A stretch of DNA of 64,000 nucleotides from an uncultured Alphaproteobacteria bacterium (GTDB taxonomy: Bacteria > Pseudomonadota > Alphaproteobacteria > RS24), in the NCBI GenBank assembly GCA_938091085.1, contig CALKOC010000030.1, positions 1-64,000 on the forward strand, given 5' to 3'. Shown here piece after piece: positions 7,876-35,469 of this stretch. The notes below the pieces were generated by a model, which saw only the letters and a list, made by a program, of their open reading frames with translations, was not told the DNA's origin and did no database searches. A program made the position numbers and the translations under genes. Every line of letters starts with the position of its first letter. Position 1 is the stretch's first letter.

Positions 7876-9258
7876 CTATTTAGAGATAAAGTCTGCGCCC
7901 AGCGTTGCCATAAGTTCAAAGAAATTTGGGAAACTGGTGGCAATCATGCGCGAGTCATCAATGGTTATCGGGTTTTTTGCGTTCAGACCTAAAATCAAAA
8001 AGCTCATGGCGATGCGGTGATCAAGATGGGTTGTGATTTGAACATTATCTTTTAAGCCCGGCACGGGGCCACCACATCCTTCAATCACCAGATCATCTTC
8101 GCCCTCAATGACTGTCACGCCACAAAGTTTTAGCCCCTCGGCTATAGCGGCGAGGCGGTCGCTCTCCTTGACCCTCAACTCAGCCAACCCATGAAGATGT
8201 GTTGTACCCCTCGCGCAGGCAGCCGCCATTGCAAGAATGGGGAATTCATCAATCATATCCGGCGCTCTTTCCGGCGGTACGTCAATGCCGACCAAATCCG
8301 AACCTTTTACTATATAATCGACGACCTTCTCTCCGGCGGCATCGCGCATATTTATTTCTTCTATAATGCCGCCCATTTCTCTTAGACAATCCCACAAGCC
8401 ACTTCGATACGGATTGACCATAACATTGTTTAGACGAATTTCTGCGCCATCAGAGAGCAGCCCAGCAACCAAAGGAAACGCTGCAGAGGAAGGGTCGCCC
8501 GGTATATGAATGGTTGTGGCTGATAATTCTGTCTCGCCCGTCAGTTCAATTCGCTGGCCTTTGAAGAGGCCCTTAACGGAATCTTTTCCATCCGGGGTGG
8601 AGGAAATTTTTGCACCAAACAGAGTGAGCATTCTTTCTGTGTGGTCGCGCGTTGATTTTTTTTCCGTCACCGCCGTTACACCCGGGGCCCCCAAACCAGC
8701 CAGCAAAATGCAGGACTTCACCTGCGCAGAGGCGACAGGCAAAACATAATCAATTGGTAAGGCTCTTTGCGGGCTGGTCAGCGTGAGCGGTAACTGCCCG
8801 CGCGCCGCACCGTGAAATTCAAAAGTGGCACCCATTTGCTCCAGTGGCTCAGTTACTCTCCCCATCGGGCGACGAGAGAGAGACTCGTCGCCAACACATC
8901 TGGCCGTGATCGGGCAGCCCGTCATGGCGCCAAGTGTCAGGCGAATCCCTGTCCCAGAATTTCCGAAATCAAGTGCGTCCTCAGGGCTGGTCAGCCCAGA
9001 AACACCTCGGCCTGTGACTTCCCATGTGCCATCCGGCAGGCGGATGGTTTGCGCGCCCATAGCTTGCATGGCCTTGCCTGTGGCCAGTACATCGTCGCCT
9101 TCGAGCAGGCCGTGGATCTTGGAAGTGCCTATTGCGAGCGCGGATAAGATAAAGCTCCGATGGGAGATTGATTTATCTCCGGGCAGCTGAATTTCTCCCT
9201 TAAAGGATGCCGTTGCACGTTCTGCGGTGACTGGCTGAGGCGTTTCTTTGTTTTTCAT
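7876..9258 (-). CDS. aroA: 3-phosphoshikimate 1-carboxyvinyltransferase (EPSP synthase)
   Basis: AroA joins phosphoenolpyruvate to shikimate 3-phosphate in the shikimate pathway that feeds the trp genes downstream and pheA elsewhere in the window. The 460-residue protein has the N-terminal LPGDKSISHRS motif, the GNSGTGIRL loop, the catalytic DEFP (IDEFPILA) region and the RVKESDRL motif. It is the first gene of the minus-strand run aroA-cmk-rpsA and faces a divergent gene across a 118-base gap to that gene's preferred start. Confidence 0.97.
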   Translation of the reverse strand: MKNKETPQPVTAERATASFKGEIQLPGDKSISHRSFILSALAIGTSKIHGLLEGDDVLATGKAMQAMGAQTIRLPDGTWEVTGRGVSGLTSPEDALDFGNSGTGIRLTLGAMTGCPITARCVGDESLSRRPMGRVTEPLEQMGATFEFHGAARGQLPLTLTSPQRALPIDYVLPVASAQVKSCILLAGLGAPGVTAVTEKKSTRDHTERMLTLFGAKISSTPDGKDSVKGLFKGQRIELTGETELSATTIHIPGDPSSAAFPLVAGLLSDGAEIRLNNVMVNPYRSGLWDCLREMGGIIEEINMRDAAGEKVVDYIVKGSDLVGIDVPPERAPDMIDEFPILAMAAACARGTTHLHGLAELRVKESDRLAAIAEGLKLCGVTVIEGEDDLVIEGCGGPVPGLKDNVQITTHLDHRIAMSFLILGLNAKNPITIDDSRMIATSFPNFFELMATLGADFISK

Positions 9259-9315
9259 GACGGTAGTTTAATAATTAATGATGTTAAGAAAAATTAAAAT
9301 TCAATATATTAGCTT

Positions 9316-9344
9316 TTGACAGGGGCTTTTCCTTGTGGCAATGG
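9316..9344 (+). promoter_or_regulatory. Candidate promoter for the acidic zinc-ribbon gene
   Basis: TTGACA at 9316-9321 is a perfect -35 hexamer. The -10 expected 17 bases later (9339-9344) is weak. The predicted transcript would begin around 9350, downstream of the first ATG in the frame (9335), which supports the later GTG start at 9377. Confidence 0.45.
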
Positions 9345-9376
9345 AAAAAAGTGGAATTCTTGCTGGAGTAATAAAA

Positions 9377-9796
9377 GTGTCCAAAGAAGTTTCAAAACAA
9401 AAGCTTGGTGAAAAGCGTGTTTGCGGTTCTTGCGGTGCAAAATTTTATGATTTGGGTAAAACCCCAATCATTTGTCCTAAATGCGGAACCCCTTATGAAG
9501 AAGCAGTTAGGCCTGCTAAAGCGTCAGCACCTGTTGCCCCGGTTGAAGAAAAGCCGGTGGTTGAAGAGGATGCGTTGGGATCAGATGATGCGGCAGACTC
9601 TGATGATGTCGAAGTCGTTGCGGATGATGACACAACTGTATCGTTGGAAGATACAATTGAAGATGATCTCAGTGATGACGATGAGGATGAACTTGACGAA
9701 CTGAAAGAGTTTGATGAGTTTGAAGAAGATTTCGAGGAAGATGATATTGATGAGGACGACAGCGATATCGCGCTTATTGATGATAATGAAGAATAA
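9377..9796 (+). CDS. TIGR02300-type acidic zinc-ribbon protein, function unknown
   Basis: The protein has a short N-terminal zinc ribbon with VCGSCGAKFYDLGKTP followed by ICPKCG, two CxxC pairs that probably hold one zinc. A long, almost purely acidic tail of Asp and Glu follows to the end. The FYDL signature is that of a conserved alphaproteobacterial family (TIGR02300) without a known role. I prefer the GTG at 9377 (139 residues, start MSKEVSKQKLGEKRVC) because GGAG lies 8 bases upstream. The ATG at 9335 adds 14 residues, has no ribosome site and would precede the predicted transcript start. It is single and divergent from aroA. Confidence 0.8.
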   Translation: MSKEVSKQKLGEKRVCGSCGAKFYDLGKTPIICPKCGTPYEEAVRPAKASAPVAPVEEKPVVEEDALGSDDAADSDDVEVVADDDTTVSLEDTIEDDLSDDDEDELDELKEFDEFEEDFEEDDIDEDDSDIALIDDNEE

Positions 9797-9939
9797 GCTT
9801 TTTGTTATCTAAAAACCTTCATAAAATCTTCTTGATTGAGATTGCTAAATTACCTAAGTTCCGCTCAATCTTAGGCAGTTAAAACTTTCATGCTGTCTTG
9901 ATATGTCTGCTTGATTAATCAGCTTGATATATCACTTTG

Positions 9940-10015
<76 letters not shown>

Positions 10016-10032
10016 TTTTTCTTTTACAGTCT

Positions 10033-10070
10033 GGGTTTACTGAGTGGACACTCAGGATAGATCTAAACCC
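10033..10070. terminator. Two-tier hairpin downstream of tRNA-Ala
   Basis: GGGTTTA at 10033-10039 pairs with TAAACCC at 10064-10070. Inside, CTGAGT pairs with ACTCAG around a GGAC loop. It lies between tRNA-Ala and the convergent ptsN and may end transcription from either side. Confidence 0.5.
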
Positions 10071-10148
10071 TTGTTATAAGGCTTAGTTAATCTAACCTAA
10101 CGATTAACCGGCATGATTAAACCTGTATGTGTTAACTTTTTTTAATAC

Positions 10149-10607
10149 CTAACTGGTGATATCCGGGTCGGTCAGCAGGGCATAAATGGCATCTGCGTGA
10201 GTAGCATTTCTAATTTTTTCGACAACATTATCATCCCGCATAAGGCGAGAAATCGTTGCCAATGCCTTGAGATGCTGTGCCCCCGCCGTCGTTGGCGCGA
10301 GTAGTAAAAACACGAGATCTACTGGTTCTTGGTCAATCGCATCAAAAGGTACTGGCCGCTCCAACAGCACAAAAAAGCCAATTAGCTCTTCTAGGGCTTC
10401 ATTTTTACCATGTGGGATAGCCACTCCATGACCGACACCAGTCGAACCGAGTTTTTCTCGCGCCAAAAGTGTGTCCATAAGGTCATGGGCATCAAGCTGA
10501 GTATGTTCAGCAGCAAGTTCCGTGAGAAACTGCAATATCTGTTTTTTTCCAGATGCCTTAACGCCCGCTAAAACGCGGTCGGGGCTTAAAAATTCCGACA
10601 ATTGCAT
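10149..10607 (-). CDS. ptsN: PTS IIA-like nitrogen regulatory protein
   Basis: PtsN (EIIA-Ntr) takes phosphate from NPr and acts as a regulator, for example of potassium transport and stress responses. The 152-residue protein carries the phosphorylated histidine in GVAIPHGK (residue 66). It also has the family N-terminus LSEFLSPDRVLAGVKASGK. It closes the lptC-lptA-lptB-hpf-ptsN series. The sigma-54 gene rpoN that usually accompanies hpf and ptsN is not here. Confidence 0.95.
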   Translation of the reverse strand: MQLSEFLSPDRVLAGVKASGKKQILQFLTELAAEHTQLDAHDLMDTLLAREKLGSTGVGHGVAIPHGKNEALEELIGFFVLLERPVPFDAIDQEPVDLVFLLLAPTTAGAQHLKALATISRLMRDDNVVEKIRNATHADAIYALLTDPDITS

Positions 10608-10666
10608 TGTTTAGATAGACCCGAGTCTTCCCATATACTGGCTATTTAATGACTTTTAGCCCGCAA

Positions 10667-11242
10667 CTAATTGGCATTTTCCTCAAGGTCAATCCAGCCG
10701 ATATTCCCGTCAGGACGACGGTGGACGATGTTCAGCCTACCGTGACTGCCATTTCTGAAAATCAGAAAATCCTCATGCGATATTTCCATTTGCATGACGG
10801 CTTCACTCACGGAGAGTTCTGGCACAGAAATACTGTTCTCCGCAATAGTAATTGGTGACCATTCTTCTGGTAATTCTTCATTTTCCGGCTCCGGGGCGAT
10901 AATCCGAGAGGTTGCATTAAGCTGGTCTACGCGCTTACCGCCTTGAATATGATGGTTTTTCAAGCGTCTTTTATAACGACGTAATTGTTTTTCGGCCTTT
11001 TGAAGGGCGGTATCAAAACAGGCGTAAATATCATCATTATCAGCGCTGGATTTAATCATCAGGCCAGAATCAAGATGAATGGTGCAATCGGCACGAAAAA
11101 AATGTCCTTGTTTTGAAAATATAATATTCGTCTCTGCGCCGCGCTCAAAATATTTGCTGATGGATGCCTCGATATTATTTTCAACATGCTCCCTTAGGGC
11201 TTCGCCAGTATCAATATGCTTGCCAGTGATTTTTATTTGCAT
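10667..11242 (-). CDS. hpf: Ribosome hibernation promoting factor, long form
   Basis: Long HPF dimerises 70S ribosomes into inactive 100S particles when growth stops. The 191-residue protein has the S30AE domain (about residues 1-105, with the SKYFERGAET and KAEKQLRRYKRRLK segments). A linker and the short C-terminal dimerisation domain follow (about 133-188, with EDFLIFRN and GNIGWIDLEE). The two-domain length separates it from the short gammaproteobacterial HPF. It lies between lptB and ptsN. Confidence 0.93.
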   Translation of the reverse strand: MQIKITGKHIDTGEALREHVENNIEASISKYFERGAETNIIFSKQGHFFRADCTIHLDSGLMIKSSADNDDIYACFDTALQKAEKQLRRYKRRLKNHHIQGGKRVDQLNATSRIIAPEPENEELPEEWSPITIAENSISVPELSVSEAVMQMEISHEDFLIFRNGSHGRLNIVHRRPDGNIGWIDLEENAN

Positions 11243-11295
11243 TTTTCTCTCCTTTACGCCTGTCGTTTAAATCTGATTATTTAAATCCGTGAATT

Positions 11296-12078
11296 CTATA
11301 GCTCAAACCCTTCCCCGAGATAAAGCCTACGAACATCATCATTCCGAATTATTTCCTCTGGCTTGCCATCGGTCAGCACATGGCCATCATGCACGATAAT
11401 TGCCCTGTCAATAATGCCCAATGTTTCACGAACATTATGATCAGTAATCAAAACGCCAACACCGCGATTTTTCAACATTGAGACGAGTTCGCGAATATCA
11501 TTCACTGCGATTGGGTCAATGCCCGCAAAAGGTTCATCAAGTAATAAATAAGATGGGTCTGTGGCCAGCGCACGAGCAATTTCTACCCGCCTTCTTTCGC
11601 CGCCTGATAAAGACACGCCTTTATGGTGGCGCAAATGCTCAATTGAAAATTCAGCAAGCAAGTTTTCGAGTTTCTTGTGACGCAACTCAATATCCGGCTC
11701 AATAACTTCTAATATCGCCAGAATATTATCCTCAACTGACAAACCACGGAAAATTGAAGCTTCTTGAGGTAAATAGCCAATACCGAGTCTGGCGCGGCGA
11801 TACATTGGTAGTTCAGTAACATCTTCACCATCCAGCAAAATGCTCCCGTTGTCGACGGGGATTTGTCCTGTAATCATATAAAAGCAGGTGGTTTTGCCAG
11901 CGCCATTAGGCCCAAGTATGCCTACTGACTCGCCGCGAGAAACCTTTAGTGAAATGTCGCGAACTACCGGTCTTTTATCGAAAGACTTACCGATACCCCT
12001 TACATCCAACCCGGACGGGCCCTCGGAGAAATTCGTCGTCGATTTTATATCGTTCGTTTTGTTTTGTGAATCCAACAA
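11296..12078 (-). CDS. lptB: LPS export ABC transporter ATP-binding protein
   Basis: LptB is the ATPase of the LptB2FGC complex that pulls lipopolysaccharide out of the inner membrane. The 260-residue protein has Walker A (GPNGAGKTT), the Q-loop, the signature LSGGERRR, Walker B (LLLDEPFAGID) and a switch histidine in ITDHNVRE. It follows lptC and lptA in the same direction. The permeases LptF and LptG are not in this window. Confidence 0.96.
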   Translation of the reverse strand: MLDSQNKTNDIKSTTNFSEGPSGLDVRGIGKSFDKRPVVRDISLKVSRGESVGILGPNGAGKTTCFYMITGQIPVDNGSILLDGEDVTELPMYRRARLGIGYLPQEASIFRGLSVEDNILAILEVIEPDIELRHKKLENLLAEFSIEHLRHHKGVSLSGGERRRVEIARALATDPSYLLLDEPFAGIDPIAVNDIRELVSMLKNRGVGVLITDHNVRETLGIIDRAIIVHDGHVLTDGKPEEIIRNDDVRRLYLGEGFEL

Positions 12079-12157
12079 GATATACCTCGATTAAAGTCTA
12101 GCCAATCTCGGCAAATGTACAAGCCTCTCCCGGCTGATAAATTTGCGCCTGATATTA

Positions 12158-30900: not shown

Positions 30901-31035
30901 GGCGACAGGTGGCTGCTGAGTGACTGAGTGAGTGACTGAGTGAGTGACTGAGTGGCTCAGTGACTGAAGGCGCTCGCCTAGAAAGCGTGTAGGCGTTAAT
31001 GCGTCTCAAGGGTTCGAACCTCTCTTTGTCCGGCA
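30901..31035 (+). pseudogene. Decayed tRNA-Ser copy with an expanded D arm
   Basis: The 3' part (about 30964-31035) matches the intact tRNA-Ser(GGA) at 32822-32911 with about 9 differences over 71 positions, including the whole variable arm and T loop. The anticodon triplet has become AGA, the anticodon stem and T stem carry mismatches, and the CCA end reads GCA. At the 5' side GGCGACAGGTGGC recalls the normal GGACAGGTGGC. The D-arm sequence GAGTGGCT has grown into about 48 bases of GAGT/GACT repeats. It cannot fold as a normal tRNA. Confidence 0.88.
30918..30965. repeat. Tandem GAGT/GACT repeat inside the tRNA-Ser pseudogene
   Basis: The clearest unit is the 12-mer GAGTGAGTGACT, at 30926-30937 and 30938-30949. 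It is flanked by GAGTGACT (30918-30925), GAGTGGCT (30950-30957) and CAGTGACT (30958-30965). The seed is the tRNA D-arm sequence GAGTGGCTGAAGG. Confidence 0.92.
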
Positions 31036-31178: not shown

Positions 31179-32612
31179 ATGTCATTGCTAATTGATATTT
31201 TATTCTTTATGGCGGCGTTGTTCATCACTGTCATTGGCATGGTGGTGCTGTTTTTGTTTTTTGTCTATCTGCACGATCGCCTTCAAACGCGTAATGCCAT
31301 TTATCGCAATTATCCCGTGCTTGGCCATATGCGCTATATATTAAAAGAATTAGGCGTGTTTTTCCGCAGCTATTTTTTTGCAGCTGATCGCGAAGAACTG
31401 CCGTTTAATCGTTTTCAGCGCGAATTTGTCAATAATATGGCTGATAATAAAGGCGGGGTGATTGCTTTTGGTTCCGGTTATAATTTGCATGATGACAGTT
31501 CTATATCTTTTGCCAATAGTTTTTATCCAACCTTAACCGAAGACGTGATGCATGTGCGGGCTGTTACTTTCGGATCAGATACGCCCAACCCCTATACAAC
31601 GGAAAGCTATTTTAATATTTCCGGTACCTCATATGGCTCCATGTCATCCAATGCCATTTTCGCCCTCTCGCGCGGTGCTAAACTTGCCGGCGCCTGGCAT
31701 AATACCGGCGAAGGTGGTTTCAGCCATTATCACGAAAAGGGCGGCGCCGATACGGTGTTTCAAATCGGTACAGCCAATTATGGTGTGCGTGGCGAAAACG
31801 GTGCGCTCGATTATGACAAGCTGACACAGCTGGCCAGCAAGGAACAAATCGTCATGTTCGAGATTAAACTGTCACAGGGCGCAAAGCCCGGCAAAGGTGG
31901 CATTCTGCCAGGTAATAAAGTGACCAGTGAAATCGCTAAAACACGTGGCATTCCCGAAGGACAAGACAGCATATCGCCCAATCGGCGTGAAGATGTGGGC
32001 AATGGCGATGAATTGGCGGAATTAATTGCACGTGTCAAACAGGCCACCGGCAAGCCTGTCGGCATCAAATTTGTTCTGGGGCGACCGCAAGACCTTGATG
32101 AGATTTTCAAGAGCTTCAAAAAACATAATGTCTATCCGAGTTTTATCACGCTGGACGGCGCCGATGGCGGCACGGGTGCGGCTCCTGCGGCGTTAATGGA
32201 CCATGTCGGCATGTTGCTTGATCGTTCCTTGCCGGCGCTCATGCATGCGCTTGAGGCCCATGGTCTGCGCGAGCAAATTCCGGTTTGTGCTTCCGGTAAG
32301 CTAATTACTCCGGCCGATATTGCCTGGGCTTTGGCCGAAGGTGCTGTGGCGGTCAATTCAGCACGCGGACCAATGTTTGCGCTGGGCTGCATTCAGGCGT
32401 TGCAATGCGATAAAAACACCTGCCCGACTGGCATTACCACTCATAATAAGCGCTTAATGCGCGGGCTGAACCCAAAGGTGAAATCGCAGCGTGTTGCCAA
32501 TTATATTACCAATACAAAAAAACAAGTGGGCTATATTGCCCATGCCACCGGCGCCGCTTGTGCGCGTTCCATTGCCAAAGACCGGGTTATACGTAAAAGC
32601 CATACTTCGTAG
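31179..32612 (+). CDS. Membrane-anchored FMN-binding glutamate synthase-like protein
   Basis: The 477-residue protein starts with a transmembrane helix (about residues 4-31). The FMN-binding TIM-barrel domain of glutamate synthases follows (GSMSSNAIFALSRGA, HNTGEGGFSHYH, then KLSQGAKPGKGGILP, DGADGGTGAAP). Near the end CIQALQCDKNTCPTGI carries three cysteines placed for an iron-sulfur cluster. There is no glutaminase domain, so this is not a complete GltB. Similar stand-alone proteins are widespread and their reaction is not settled. It is flanked by the tRNA-Ser pseudogene and the intact tRNA-Ser. Confidence 0.85.
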   Translation: MSLLIDILFFMAALFITVIGMVVLFLFFVYLHDRLQTRNAIYRNYPVLGHMRYILKELGVFFRSYFFAADREELPFNRFQREFVNNMADNKGGVIAFGSGYNLHDDSSISFANSFYPTLTEDVMHVRAVTFGSDTPNPYTTESYFNISGTSYGSMSSNAIFALSRGAKLAGAWHNTGEGGFSHYHEKGGADTVFQIGTANYGVRGENGALDYDKLTQLASKEQIVMFEIKLSQGAKPGKGGILPGNKVTSEIAKTRGIPEGQDSISPNRREDVGNGDELAELIARVKQATGKPVGIKFVLGRPQDLDEIFKSFKKHNVYPSFITLDGADGGTGAAPAALMDHVGMLLDRSLPALMHALEAHGLREQIPVCASGKLITPADIAWALAEGAVAVNSARGPMFALGCIQALQCDKNTCPTGITTHNKRLMRGLNPKVKSQRVANYITNTKKQVGYIAHATGAACARSIAKDRVIRKSHTS

Positions 32613-32821: not shown

Positions 32822-32911
32822 GGACAGGTGGCCGAGTGGCTGAAGGCGCACGCTTGGAAAGCGTGTAGGCGTTAACGCGTCTCGAGGGTTCGAATCCCTC
32901 TCTGTCCGCCA
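32822..32911 (+). tRNA. tRNA-Ser (anticodon GGA)
   Basis: A 90-base class II tRNA. Acceptor GGACAGG pairs with TCTGTCC with a final G-U. The anticodon stem CACGC/GCGTG encloses TTGGAAA (anticodon GGA). A long variable arm and the T loop TTCGAAT follow, and CCA is encoded at 32909-32911. Confidence 0.97.
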
Positions 32912-33038: not shown

Positions 33039-34394
33039 CTAGAGCATGAACTCCTTTGTGAAGGACAGTTTCCACAAATTCGTATCAATCTCATAAATGG
33101 ATAAATTCGACTTGTTTTGATTGATGGTGTAGCTGGCGTTTATTTTCCAGCCTTCGAGTTTCGGAGACAGGGTCTCAGCATTAAGCCTGTAGTTCACACC
33201 ATAAATTGTGCGTTCGTCCTCTCGAATGCGTGGTGCTGAAGTGAGGCGTTTGGCATATGCCGACTCCGCATATTCATAGAAAAAATTCACCTGATGATTG
33301 GCATTGGGCAACCAGAAAATACCTAAGCCATAGCTGTCTTGTTCTCTTTCGGTCTTAGCCACGGCATTGGTTGTGGCTTCAGTAGCCTCGCGATCTGAGT
33401 AGGTTAAATGCATACGGGCATATACGGATGCGGATAATTTAGCGAGCATGCCAGCAGAATGACTTAGCTCCTCCGAGTCCGAGTCATTTGCAGTGGGTGT
33501 GTTACTGTGATCCTGTTCCATATATTTGAAATTGTAAAACAGTCTCCAACCATTCTGGAGTTTATAGCTATATCCAAAACGCGCTTGTTTGACGTCAATA
33601 TCATTATTGAGCTGCACTTGCCCATTGCGCGATGCACTGAATACCGTATTTGTGCGGTCAATCGTTGTGTAGCCGAGTCCAAAATTCAGATTGTTAGCAC
33701 CTCTGACTATTTTATAGCTCAGCGCACCGGCCGTTGTGTTGGACGTCGTGTTTTCAGCTTTATCGCCATCAGTTTCTTGAGCGGAAATAGAGAAGTTTAG
33801 CGAGTCCTGGCCGAATTGATATTTGCCCTCAAAGTCTGCCATTAACCCGAAACTTGTGTCGTCAATCTTGGCGACGGCATCATCATTCACATTATCAACT
33901 CTATTAATAAGTGTGGTAGTGGTGCCGTCAAAATATTCAAAGATACCACTTTCAGGAAAGCTGTTAGCATTGTCATTGCCGGTAACAGAAAGGCCAATAC
34001 GCGCTTTAAATTGCCAGCCATCTGCGCCTTCAATATTCTGTGCCAGTTTTCTGGCACGGAGTTTCTTATCAGCCGGTAAGGGGAGTGTTGAGAGAAGTTT
34101 AATTTCTTCAAGTACTTCATCGCCCCTGCCAAGAAGATAGAGAATCTGCCCGCGAATATAGCGAGCATCAAGGTTTTGTGGATTGGCAATCAAGACTTTT
34201 TCGATATTCATTAAGGCTTCATCGAGTTTGCCTTGTTGAAGGTTGACGAGGGCAAGATTGAGCGCAACTGTCTCACCGATATTTGCGGGGGTGTCTTGAT
34301 TTGCGGCAGCGGCCTCGCGTGGGTGAACCCATAATGTGAAGATGAGGTTAAGCAACAAGAAAGCCGCGCCATAGCGGCGGAACAAAATAAGCAT
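33039..34394 (-). CDS. Exported TPR plus beta-barrel protein, Slam-like architecture
   Basis: The 451-residue protein has a signal peptide (about 1-33, ending near AAAA). Two or so tetratricopeptide-like helix pairs follow at about 45-125 (ALVNLQQGKLDEALMNIEKV, DARYIRGQILYLLGRG). From about 130 to the end it shows alternating amphipathic strands typical of an outer-membrane barrel (FKARIGLSVTGNDNANSF, NLNFGLGYTTIDRT, WRLFYNFKYMEQD), ending LSFTKEFML. TPR followed by a barrel is the plan of surface lipoprotein assembly modulators (Slam, DUF560) and related alphaproteobacterial porin-like proteins. Its stop is next to a big inverted repeat; a small secreted protein is encoded just upstream and a lipoprotein is divergent. 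Confidence 0.7.
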   Translation of the reverse strand: MLILFRRYGAAFLLLNLIFTLWVHPREAAAANQDTPANIGETVALNLALVNLQQGKLDEALMNIEKVLIANPQNLDARYIRGQILYLLGRGDEVLEEIKLLSTLPLPADKKLRARKLAQNIEGADGWQFKARIGLSVTGNDNANSFPESGIFEYFDGTTTTLINRVDNVNDDAVAKIDDTSFGLMADFEGKYQFGQDSLNFSISAQETDGDKAENTTSNTTAGALSYKIVRGANNLNFGLGYTTIDRTNTVFSASRNGQVQLNNDIDVKQARFGYSYKLQNGWRLFYNFKYMEQDHSNTPTANDSDSEELSHSAGMLAKLSASVYARMHLTYSDREATEATTNAVAKTEREQDSYGLGIFWLPNANHQVNFFYEYAESAYAKRLTSAPRIREDERTIYGVNYRLNAETLSPKLEGWKINASYTINQNKSNLSIYEIDTNLWKLSFTKEFML

Positions 34395-34428
34395 AATTTA
34401 ACCTTTATTTTTACGATACAGAGGATGA

Positions 34429-34959
34429 TTACTGTGCTGTTGGATCAGCTGAGCCAAAATTGTTGGACACGGATTGGACAATTGCCCAGTCAGCATCAGA
34501 CAAGTTGCCTTGACCATTAAGGGGGTTGAACGTTTCCTGTCCTACAATCTCTTTGCCTGCATCTGAAAGCTGATCAAAGGCGTTTAAAGTTTCTGTAACC
34601 TGCTGGAGGTTTACGTCGCCATTTTCTAATGCTTCAGCAATCATTGCCTGAATATCAAAATCAAAATTATCAATATTAGCTTCAATGATTTCTAGTGCTT
34701 GGTTGAGGGTGCCGGCTTCTTCTTGTGTGATAAGCCCTTGTTCAAGTGCATCGGCTACCATTGCGCTGTCGAGTGCAGCATCAATTTGTACGGATATATC
34801 CCCGGCTCCTGCGCCATTGGCAAAATCTTGTTCTGTTAGGCCTGAAATGGCGTCACCTAGTGGGACAATTTCAGTTTCTTGCGCCTTAACAAAAGATGCT
34901 GAGAGCGAAATTGTGAAGATTAAAAAAGAAAAAAGAGAGAAATAACGCATTTTTACCAT
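34429..34959 (-). CDS. Secreted acidic protein of unknown function
   Basis: The 176-residue product has a clear signal peptide (about residues 1-26, ending VKAQ). An acidic, helix-rich mature part follows, full of Asp, Glu, Ala and Gln (EQGLITQEEAGTLNQALEII, MIAEALENGDVNLQQV). No cysteine is present and no family is recognised. It is transcribed just before the TPR-barrel gene, 34 bases apart, so the two are probably co-expressed. It could be a cargo or a periplasmic helper. The start may be the first ATG (34959) or the one three codons later. Confidence 0.7.
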   Translation of the reverse strand: MVKMRYFSLFSFLIFTISLSASFVKAQETEIVPLGDAISGLTEQDFANGAGAGDISVQIDAALDSAMVADALEQGLITQEEAGTLNQALEIIEANIDNFDFDIQAMIAEALENGDVNLQQVTETLNAFDQLSDAGKEIVGQETFNPLNGQGNLSDADWAIVQSVSNNFGSADPTAQ

Positions 34960-35109
34960 TACCTTATTTGAATGTTGTGAATAAGTTAGCTCTATGGCTT
35001 CTATGACTATATCTGTGCAGTTTTAGGAATAATAATTGCTAGTAAAAAAGTAAGTGAATTTACATTTTTGTTTTATTTGTTGTTTTTTGACCATATTTTG
35101 AGGTGTTGC

Positions 35110-35469
35110 ATGTTAAATTTTAAAGGTTTTTCCTTTTCACTTATCCTAATGACAGGCTTTCTGGCTGGCTGTGCGTCAGGCGGGTCATCACCTTCATCGA
35201 ATGCTGATATGCTTGGGAAAAATGATATGGCCAAAAACTTCGAAGCCGGGTTTGTTGAGGGTCTGGAAGGGACAATTATTCAACGTCGTCTGGATGCGTT
35301 GGAAAAAATGGCTCAGCTTTGTGGGCGTAACAATTATAGAATTACCAATATGGATGAAACCAATGAGGGTAATATGAATGTCGGAGGACCCGAGCCTGTT
35401 GGGGATGGCATGGTTCTCATCAGTGAGAGTGTGATTAAATTTCGTTGGGAATTTGTCTGCAACAATTAG
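35110..35469 (+). CDS. Small lipoprotein of unknown function
   Basis: ATG 35110, preceded by AGGTG, gives 119 residues. The signal peptide ends in the lipobox LAGC (cysteine about residue 21), followed by ASGGSSPSSN, so the mature protein should be lipid-anchored. The rest has IIQRRLDALEKMAQLCGRNNY and a beta-rich C-terminus with a second pair of cysteines. It is divergent from the secreted protein and TPR-barrel pair across about 150 AT-rich bases. The frame is open to 35068 but that extension would bury the signal peptide. Confidence 0.75.
   Translation: MLNFKGFSFSLILMTGFLAGCASGGSSPSSNADMLGKNDMAKNFEAGFVEGLEGTIIQRRLDALEKMAQLCGRNNYRITNMDETNEGNMNVGGPEPVGDGMVLISESVIKFRWEFVCNN

Follow-up and report, generated by a model that had tools for sequence, protein, structure and literature searches.

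A predicted TPR-barrel protein remotely related to Slam and the small acidic protein encoded beside it in Alphaproteobacteria

The closest described counterparts of the locus analyzed here are the Slam translocators of the type 11 secretion system (T11SS; DUF560, Pfam family PF04575, SlipAM). Slam1 consists of a TPR part followed by 14 strands, the layout also predicted for the barrel protein of this work, and slam genes are frequently found next to genes for lipoproteins (PMC5449769). The T11SS that have been verified experimentally move proteins with an 8-stranded β-barrel domain, and it is by this domain that predicted cargo has been recognised; a marine group of T11SS, cluster 3, has DUF1194 proteins as partners (PMC12282271).

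In this work we have analyzed a TPR-barrel locus in a stretch of 64,000 nucleotides (the window) from the genome of an uncultured alphaproteobacterium, which comprises 1.70 Mb in 64 contigs. Among named relatives, the nearest that we found was IMCC14465, a marine isolate of the PS1 clade. The best reading of the data is that the acidic, predicted helical protein encoded beside the barrel is a new kind of partner for a Slam-like translocator, and probably its cargo.

Organization and conservation of the gene pair

The TPR-barrel gene (33039..34394, minus strand) encodes 451 amino acids. The gene for the acidic protein (34429..34959, 176 amino acids) is located 34 bases upstream on the same strand and is separated by an AT-rich divergent spacer (34960..35109, approximately 150 bases, approximately 26% GC) from a lipoprotein gene on the plus strand (35110..35469), which starts with ATG and encodes 119 amino acids with a lipobox, GFLAGC, recognised by eye. 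The spacer is presumed to be the promoter region of the pair; a promoter scan gave no more matches in it than in shuffled sequence. The opposite flank of the pair carries tRNA-Ser (GGA) (32822..32911, plus strand). Taken together, the flanks consist of a glutamate-synthase-like gene, the tRNA, the lipoprotein gene and a gene for a fatty-acid hydroxylase, with no polysaccharide synthase genes among them. A preliminary description of this DNA, made from its letters and open reading frames, gave the same three genes, spacer and co-directional arrangement, and all three reading frames are real at these coordinates; its count of three small proteins has to be lowered to two.

The acidic protein carries a Sec-type signal and no lipobox (both judged by eye), and its mature part contains 28 D/E residues and a single K/R, giving a pI of 4.05, in agreement with the earlier view of a secreted acidic product. 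Direct searches of Pfam, NCBIfam, PHROGs and PDB sequences returned nothing sound for it, and its structure model is helical at a pLDDT of 37, a confidence too low to be usable. In comparison with IMCC14465 both genes are under purifying selection (dN/dS of about 0.08 for the barrel and of about 0.03 for the acidic gene, the latter with saturated dS).

Homologs of the acidic protein have been found in six genomes: that of the window, IMCC14465 (G002, locus L011), a member of another genus of the window's family (G007) and three members of another order (G327, G830 and G888). In all six the acidic gene lies directly upstream of, and is co-directional with, a gene for a barrel of the window barrel's family; no FecR-domain gene, the usual neighbor of related barrels (see below), adjoins the barrel, and the slot is held by the acidic gene. 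The six aligned proteins have a pI near 4 and a common C-terminal motif around FDQLSDAGK...LSDADKAI. G830 has two tandem acidic genes in front of a single barrel gene. The G327 pair is decayed, with an in-frame stop and a frameshift in the acidic gene and a stop near the start of the barrel gene; about 320 bases from it (L091 6782-6848) there is an apparent tRNA-Met, cut by the contig end and not called by ARAGORN. The neighborhood of the pair revealed no third conserved gene. In a sample that covers a subset of each taxon and includes some incomplete genomes, the barrel and acidic genes thus form a conserved two-gene unit recurring in distantly related bacteria, in six genomes of two orders.

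The lipoprotein gene has a different distribution. It is present in five of the six genomes of the genus, among them three without barrel and acidic genes (G001, G003 and G005), and was found in none of the other 35 of the 41 genomes searched, all outside the genus and including the pair-bearing G007. The three genomes without the pair are 99%, 90% and 77% complete, respectively, which makes the absence weaker for G003 and G005. In all three the lipoprotein gene lies directly behind tRNA-Ser (GGA), with lepA before the tRNA (the G003 contig starts at the end of lepA) and the same fatty-acid hydroxylase gene downstream. The window has the barrel-acidic pair between these two elements, which mark the site of its presence or absence, and the divergent layout exists because the pair was gained or lost at this place. 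The lipoprotein therefore belongs to the flank and not to the set. Of the small genes proposed to be conserved beside the barrel, the acidic one holds its place and the lipoprotein does not; no profile matched the latter. Its C-terminal part (35230-35466) is nearly identical across the genus, and an N-terminal stretch varies.

The region around tRNA-Ser (GGA) resembles an insertion site at a tRNA. Right behind lepA there is another copy of this tRNA (30903-31035), which is decayed and whose 5′ half contains an expanded repeat of the GAGTGACT type, and the decayed and intact copies bracket the glutamate-synthase-like gene (31179-32612), which is unmatched at the same place in four relatives. 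IMCC14465 (positions 7900-12125 of its locus) has other genes between tRNA-Ser and the barrel gene, one for a 599-amino-acid membrane protein and several small ones, as at a variable site.

Relation of the barrel to Slam and to a FecR-linked family

Direct searches of Pfam, NCBIfam, PHROGs and PDB sequences with the barrel protein gave TPR matches only, the TPR being located at residues 45-93 (PF13432 TPR_16, E 5.5e-6, below the curated cut-off of that model). An AlphaFold2 model built on eight sequences consists of five periplasmic helices followed by 14 strands (mean pLDDT 75, pTM 0.63), so that the TPR and outer-membrane barrel architecture suggested at the outset is borne out as a prediction. 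The fold search with this model found generic barrels, the 14-stranded channels CymA and OmpG being among the best solved folds and BcsC a weaker match. The Slam profile matched only TPR proteins in the same PDB copy, and hence no solved Slam barrel could compete in this search.

The preliminary description had compared the barrel to the Slam type. Neither PF04575 (at E≤1) nor the TPR_Slam model PF24575 matches the window barrel, and PF04575 was found nowhere in the window genome; within the barrel's family, 12 of 40 members match PF04575 (E≤0.01) and 11 of 40 match PF24575. Profile-profile comparison by hhalign of the window barrel and its near relatives with 14 true Slams gave a probability of 99.0% (E 4.8e-18) over 377 columns, from the TPR through the C-terminus. 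The barrel part alone scored 97.9%, the single window sequence 96.8% and a profile restricted to acidic-linked barrels 98.2%. All controls remained between 0 and 19%: column-shuffled or reversed alignments reached 0-1.6% and two unrelated outer-membrane barrels 18.8%. A rotated-alignment control was dropped since rotation keeps true local matches. When the window barrel is aligned jointly with five Slams, its residues N142, D393 and S429-N430 do not vary. In the tree the window barrel falls outside the Slam clade, in a separate clade with a 100/100 split. Remote homology to Slam over both the TPR and barrel domains is therefore well supported at the level of sequence profiles, and membership of DUF560 as the Pfam model defines that family is not supported; the Slam comparison stands in the first sense only.

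Searched with an alignment of the barrels, 385 alphaproteobacterial genomes yielded matches (E≤1e-6) in 57. A FecR-domain gene immediately adjoins the barrel gene in 16 of the 31 class-wide loci from which a barrel reading frame was recovered, a share that is not unbiased because the query alignment held FecR-linked members. Among 55 neighboring proteins scanned, FecR was found in 16, CHASE2 in 11 and a guanylate/adenylate cyclase domain in 10. The tree places the barrel in a separate, widespread alphaproteobacterial sister family of Slam, the usual partner of which is a predicted secreted FecR-domain protein, often encoded beside a CHASE2 cyclase. FecR is mentioned in neither of the two main T11SS papers (PMC12282271, PMC8406197), and our literature search found no paper that links it with the full Slam name.

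In several families of Alphaproteobacteria (L093, L095, L099, L101, L106, L115 and other loci) the TPR-barrel gene is grouped with genes for a FecR protein and a CHASE2 cyclase. One locus (L024 2-7574, G027) has two divergent FecR and TPR-barrel pairs back to back, with differing orders of the two genes. The window genome itself encodes a second TPR-barrel (L090 2-2386). The gene in front of it is truncated at the end of the contig and retains the C-terminal part of a large secreted protein, which comparison with G001 and G002 of the same genus identifies as the FecR partner. A true Slam (PF04575, E 2.4e-29) is encoded in G013, a member of the window's family (L050 4901-7088), together with a lipoprotein ending in GTFVGAKQ, and ExbB/TonB-like genes lie nearby.

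In the final tree, from which the barrels of L126, L053, L113 and L050 were left out as long branches of the first tree or as doubtful, the acidic-linked barrels form one clade (support 100/99). Its sister group is made up of FecR-linked barrels (100/97), and the clade is embedded among barrels of that kind. The tree is midpoint-rooted and the direction of partner change is taken from the nesting; the simplest history would then be a single replacement of the FecR partner by the acidic protein. By profile comparison the acidic protein resembled neither the FecR partners nor a Slam cargo. The C-termini of the FecR partners, whose endings had raised the suspicion of such a relation, did not resemble a Slam cargo either.

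Export and competing explanations

We hold with moderate confidence that the barrel is an outer-membrane translocator of a Slam (type 11 secretion) sister family, with the acidic protein as its dedicated partner and most probably its cargo. The Slam homology, predicted fold, gene pairing and nesting of the acidic clade have been computed; from them we infer that the barrel would move a protein, in which direction, and that the acidic protein would be the one moved. By analogy with Slam, the acidic protein would cross the inner membrane via Sec and be captured in the periplasm by the TPR domain of the translocator; its way to the cell surface or the medium would then lead through the 14-stranded barrel or alongside it. 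The two tandem acidic genes for one barrel in G830 are as expected of cargo, and the joint decay of both genes in G327 has also been counted for export. Against it stand the missing PF04575 and TPR_Slam matches of the window barrel, the lack in the acidic protein of the 8-stranded barrel common to the C-termini of known Slam cargo, and the CHASE2 cyclases of the FecR-linked relatives, which could point to signalling. More tentatively, the window's clade of Slam-related and normally FecR-paired exporters may have replaced the FecR partner and switched to small, extremely acidic helical substrates free of an 8-stranded barrel.

FecR is a known signalling domain, and the FecR and CHASE2 proteins of the relatives make signalling the main alternative to export. 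The barrel could be an outer-membrane receptor or sensor whose periplasmic partner, FecR in most relatives and the acidic protein here, relays the status of the surface to the inside, where a CHASE2 adenylate cyclase would be the recipient in the relatives. The domain counts of the neighbor scan speak for such a role, as does a published CHASE2-FecR pairing in a Burkholderia biofilm operon, which also includes a histidine kinase (PMC5192318). The FecR partners, however, look like secreted proteins of 400-1000 amino acids and not like membrane-spanning anti-sigma factors, no cyclase or FecR gene adjoins the window pair, and profile comparison shows no relation between the acidic protein and FecR; we regard the sensor role as unlikely, if worth serious attention.

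It is improbable that the acidic protein merely assists the barrel in the periplasm, as a chaperone or plug, with the real cargo encoded elsewhere. Its small size, predicted helical nature and lack of a cargo-type barrel would fit, and the constant acidity of all six sequences could suit a chaperone-like surface, yet it fills the slot of the FecR partner, it is duplicated in tandem for one barrel, and the pair has no third conserved neighbor. Slightly less probable still is that a plain porin or channel for small solutes carries a TPR appendage and that its pairing with the acidic gene has no function. The preliminary description had named an ordinary porin as the finding that would count against it, a finding that the analysis did not yield. 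CymA and OmpG among the best folds, together with the missed PF04575, do point that way; that fold ranking was obtained with no solved Slam barrel able to compete, the sequence profiles are closer to Slam than to other barrels, and the acidic gene adjoins the barrel gene in all six genomes, which represent two orders. Transport of the divergent lipoprotein to the surface, as originally proposed, recalls the frequent position of Slams beside lipoprotein genes (PMC5449769) and fits the adjacent, divergent genes of the window and IMCC14465, but it is largely refuted and most improbable, since the lipoprotein is kept in three genus members without the barrel, was found in none of the 35 genomes searched outside the genus, the pair-bearing G007 included, and, at 119 amino acids and with no profile matches, gives no indication of the 8-stranded barrel found in known Slam cargo. 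What survives of the proposed surface export set is a Slam-related barrel with a conserved acidic partner.

Comparison with known systems

If export is correct, the sister family with helical partners and the larger one with FecR partners would widen the range of T11SS cargo, and the former would provide a simple two-gene pair for asking what a TPR-barrel machine recognises. The Slam-like sister family also suggests export partners for many unexplained alphaproteobacterial FecR-domain proteins.

The polysaccharide exporters BcsC and PgaA resemble the window protein in the fusion of a TPR domain to an outer-membrane barrel. In these exporters, however, the TPR arrays are longer, the barrels have 16 strands and polysaccharide synthase genes are located nearby, features that the window locus does not share. 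The marine cluster 3 T11SS are likewise from marine Alphaproteobacteria and combine a Slam-like barrel with a partner other than classical cargo (PMC12282271); that partner is a von Willebrand-like α/β protein, whereas the window partner is acidic and predicted to be helical, and none of the window proteins scanned matched DUF1194. Slam itself has in common with the window barrel the N-terminal TPR and 14-stranded barrel, profile-profile homology in both domains, the residues N142, D393 and S429-N430 and a secreted gene partner. It differs in its PF04575 match and its separate clade (100/100), and in a partner with a C-terminal 8-stranded barrel in place of a small, acidic, predicted helical protein. 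The closest relatives of the window barrel are the FecR-linked TPR-barrels, from which the window locus departs in having no CHASE2 cyclase nearby and an acidic protein instead of FecR, and with which it shares a partner gene directly adjoining the barrel, as in 16 of the 31 loci.
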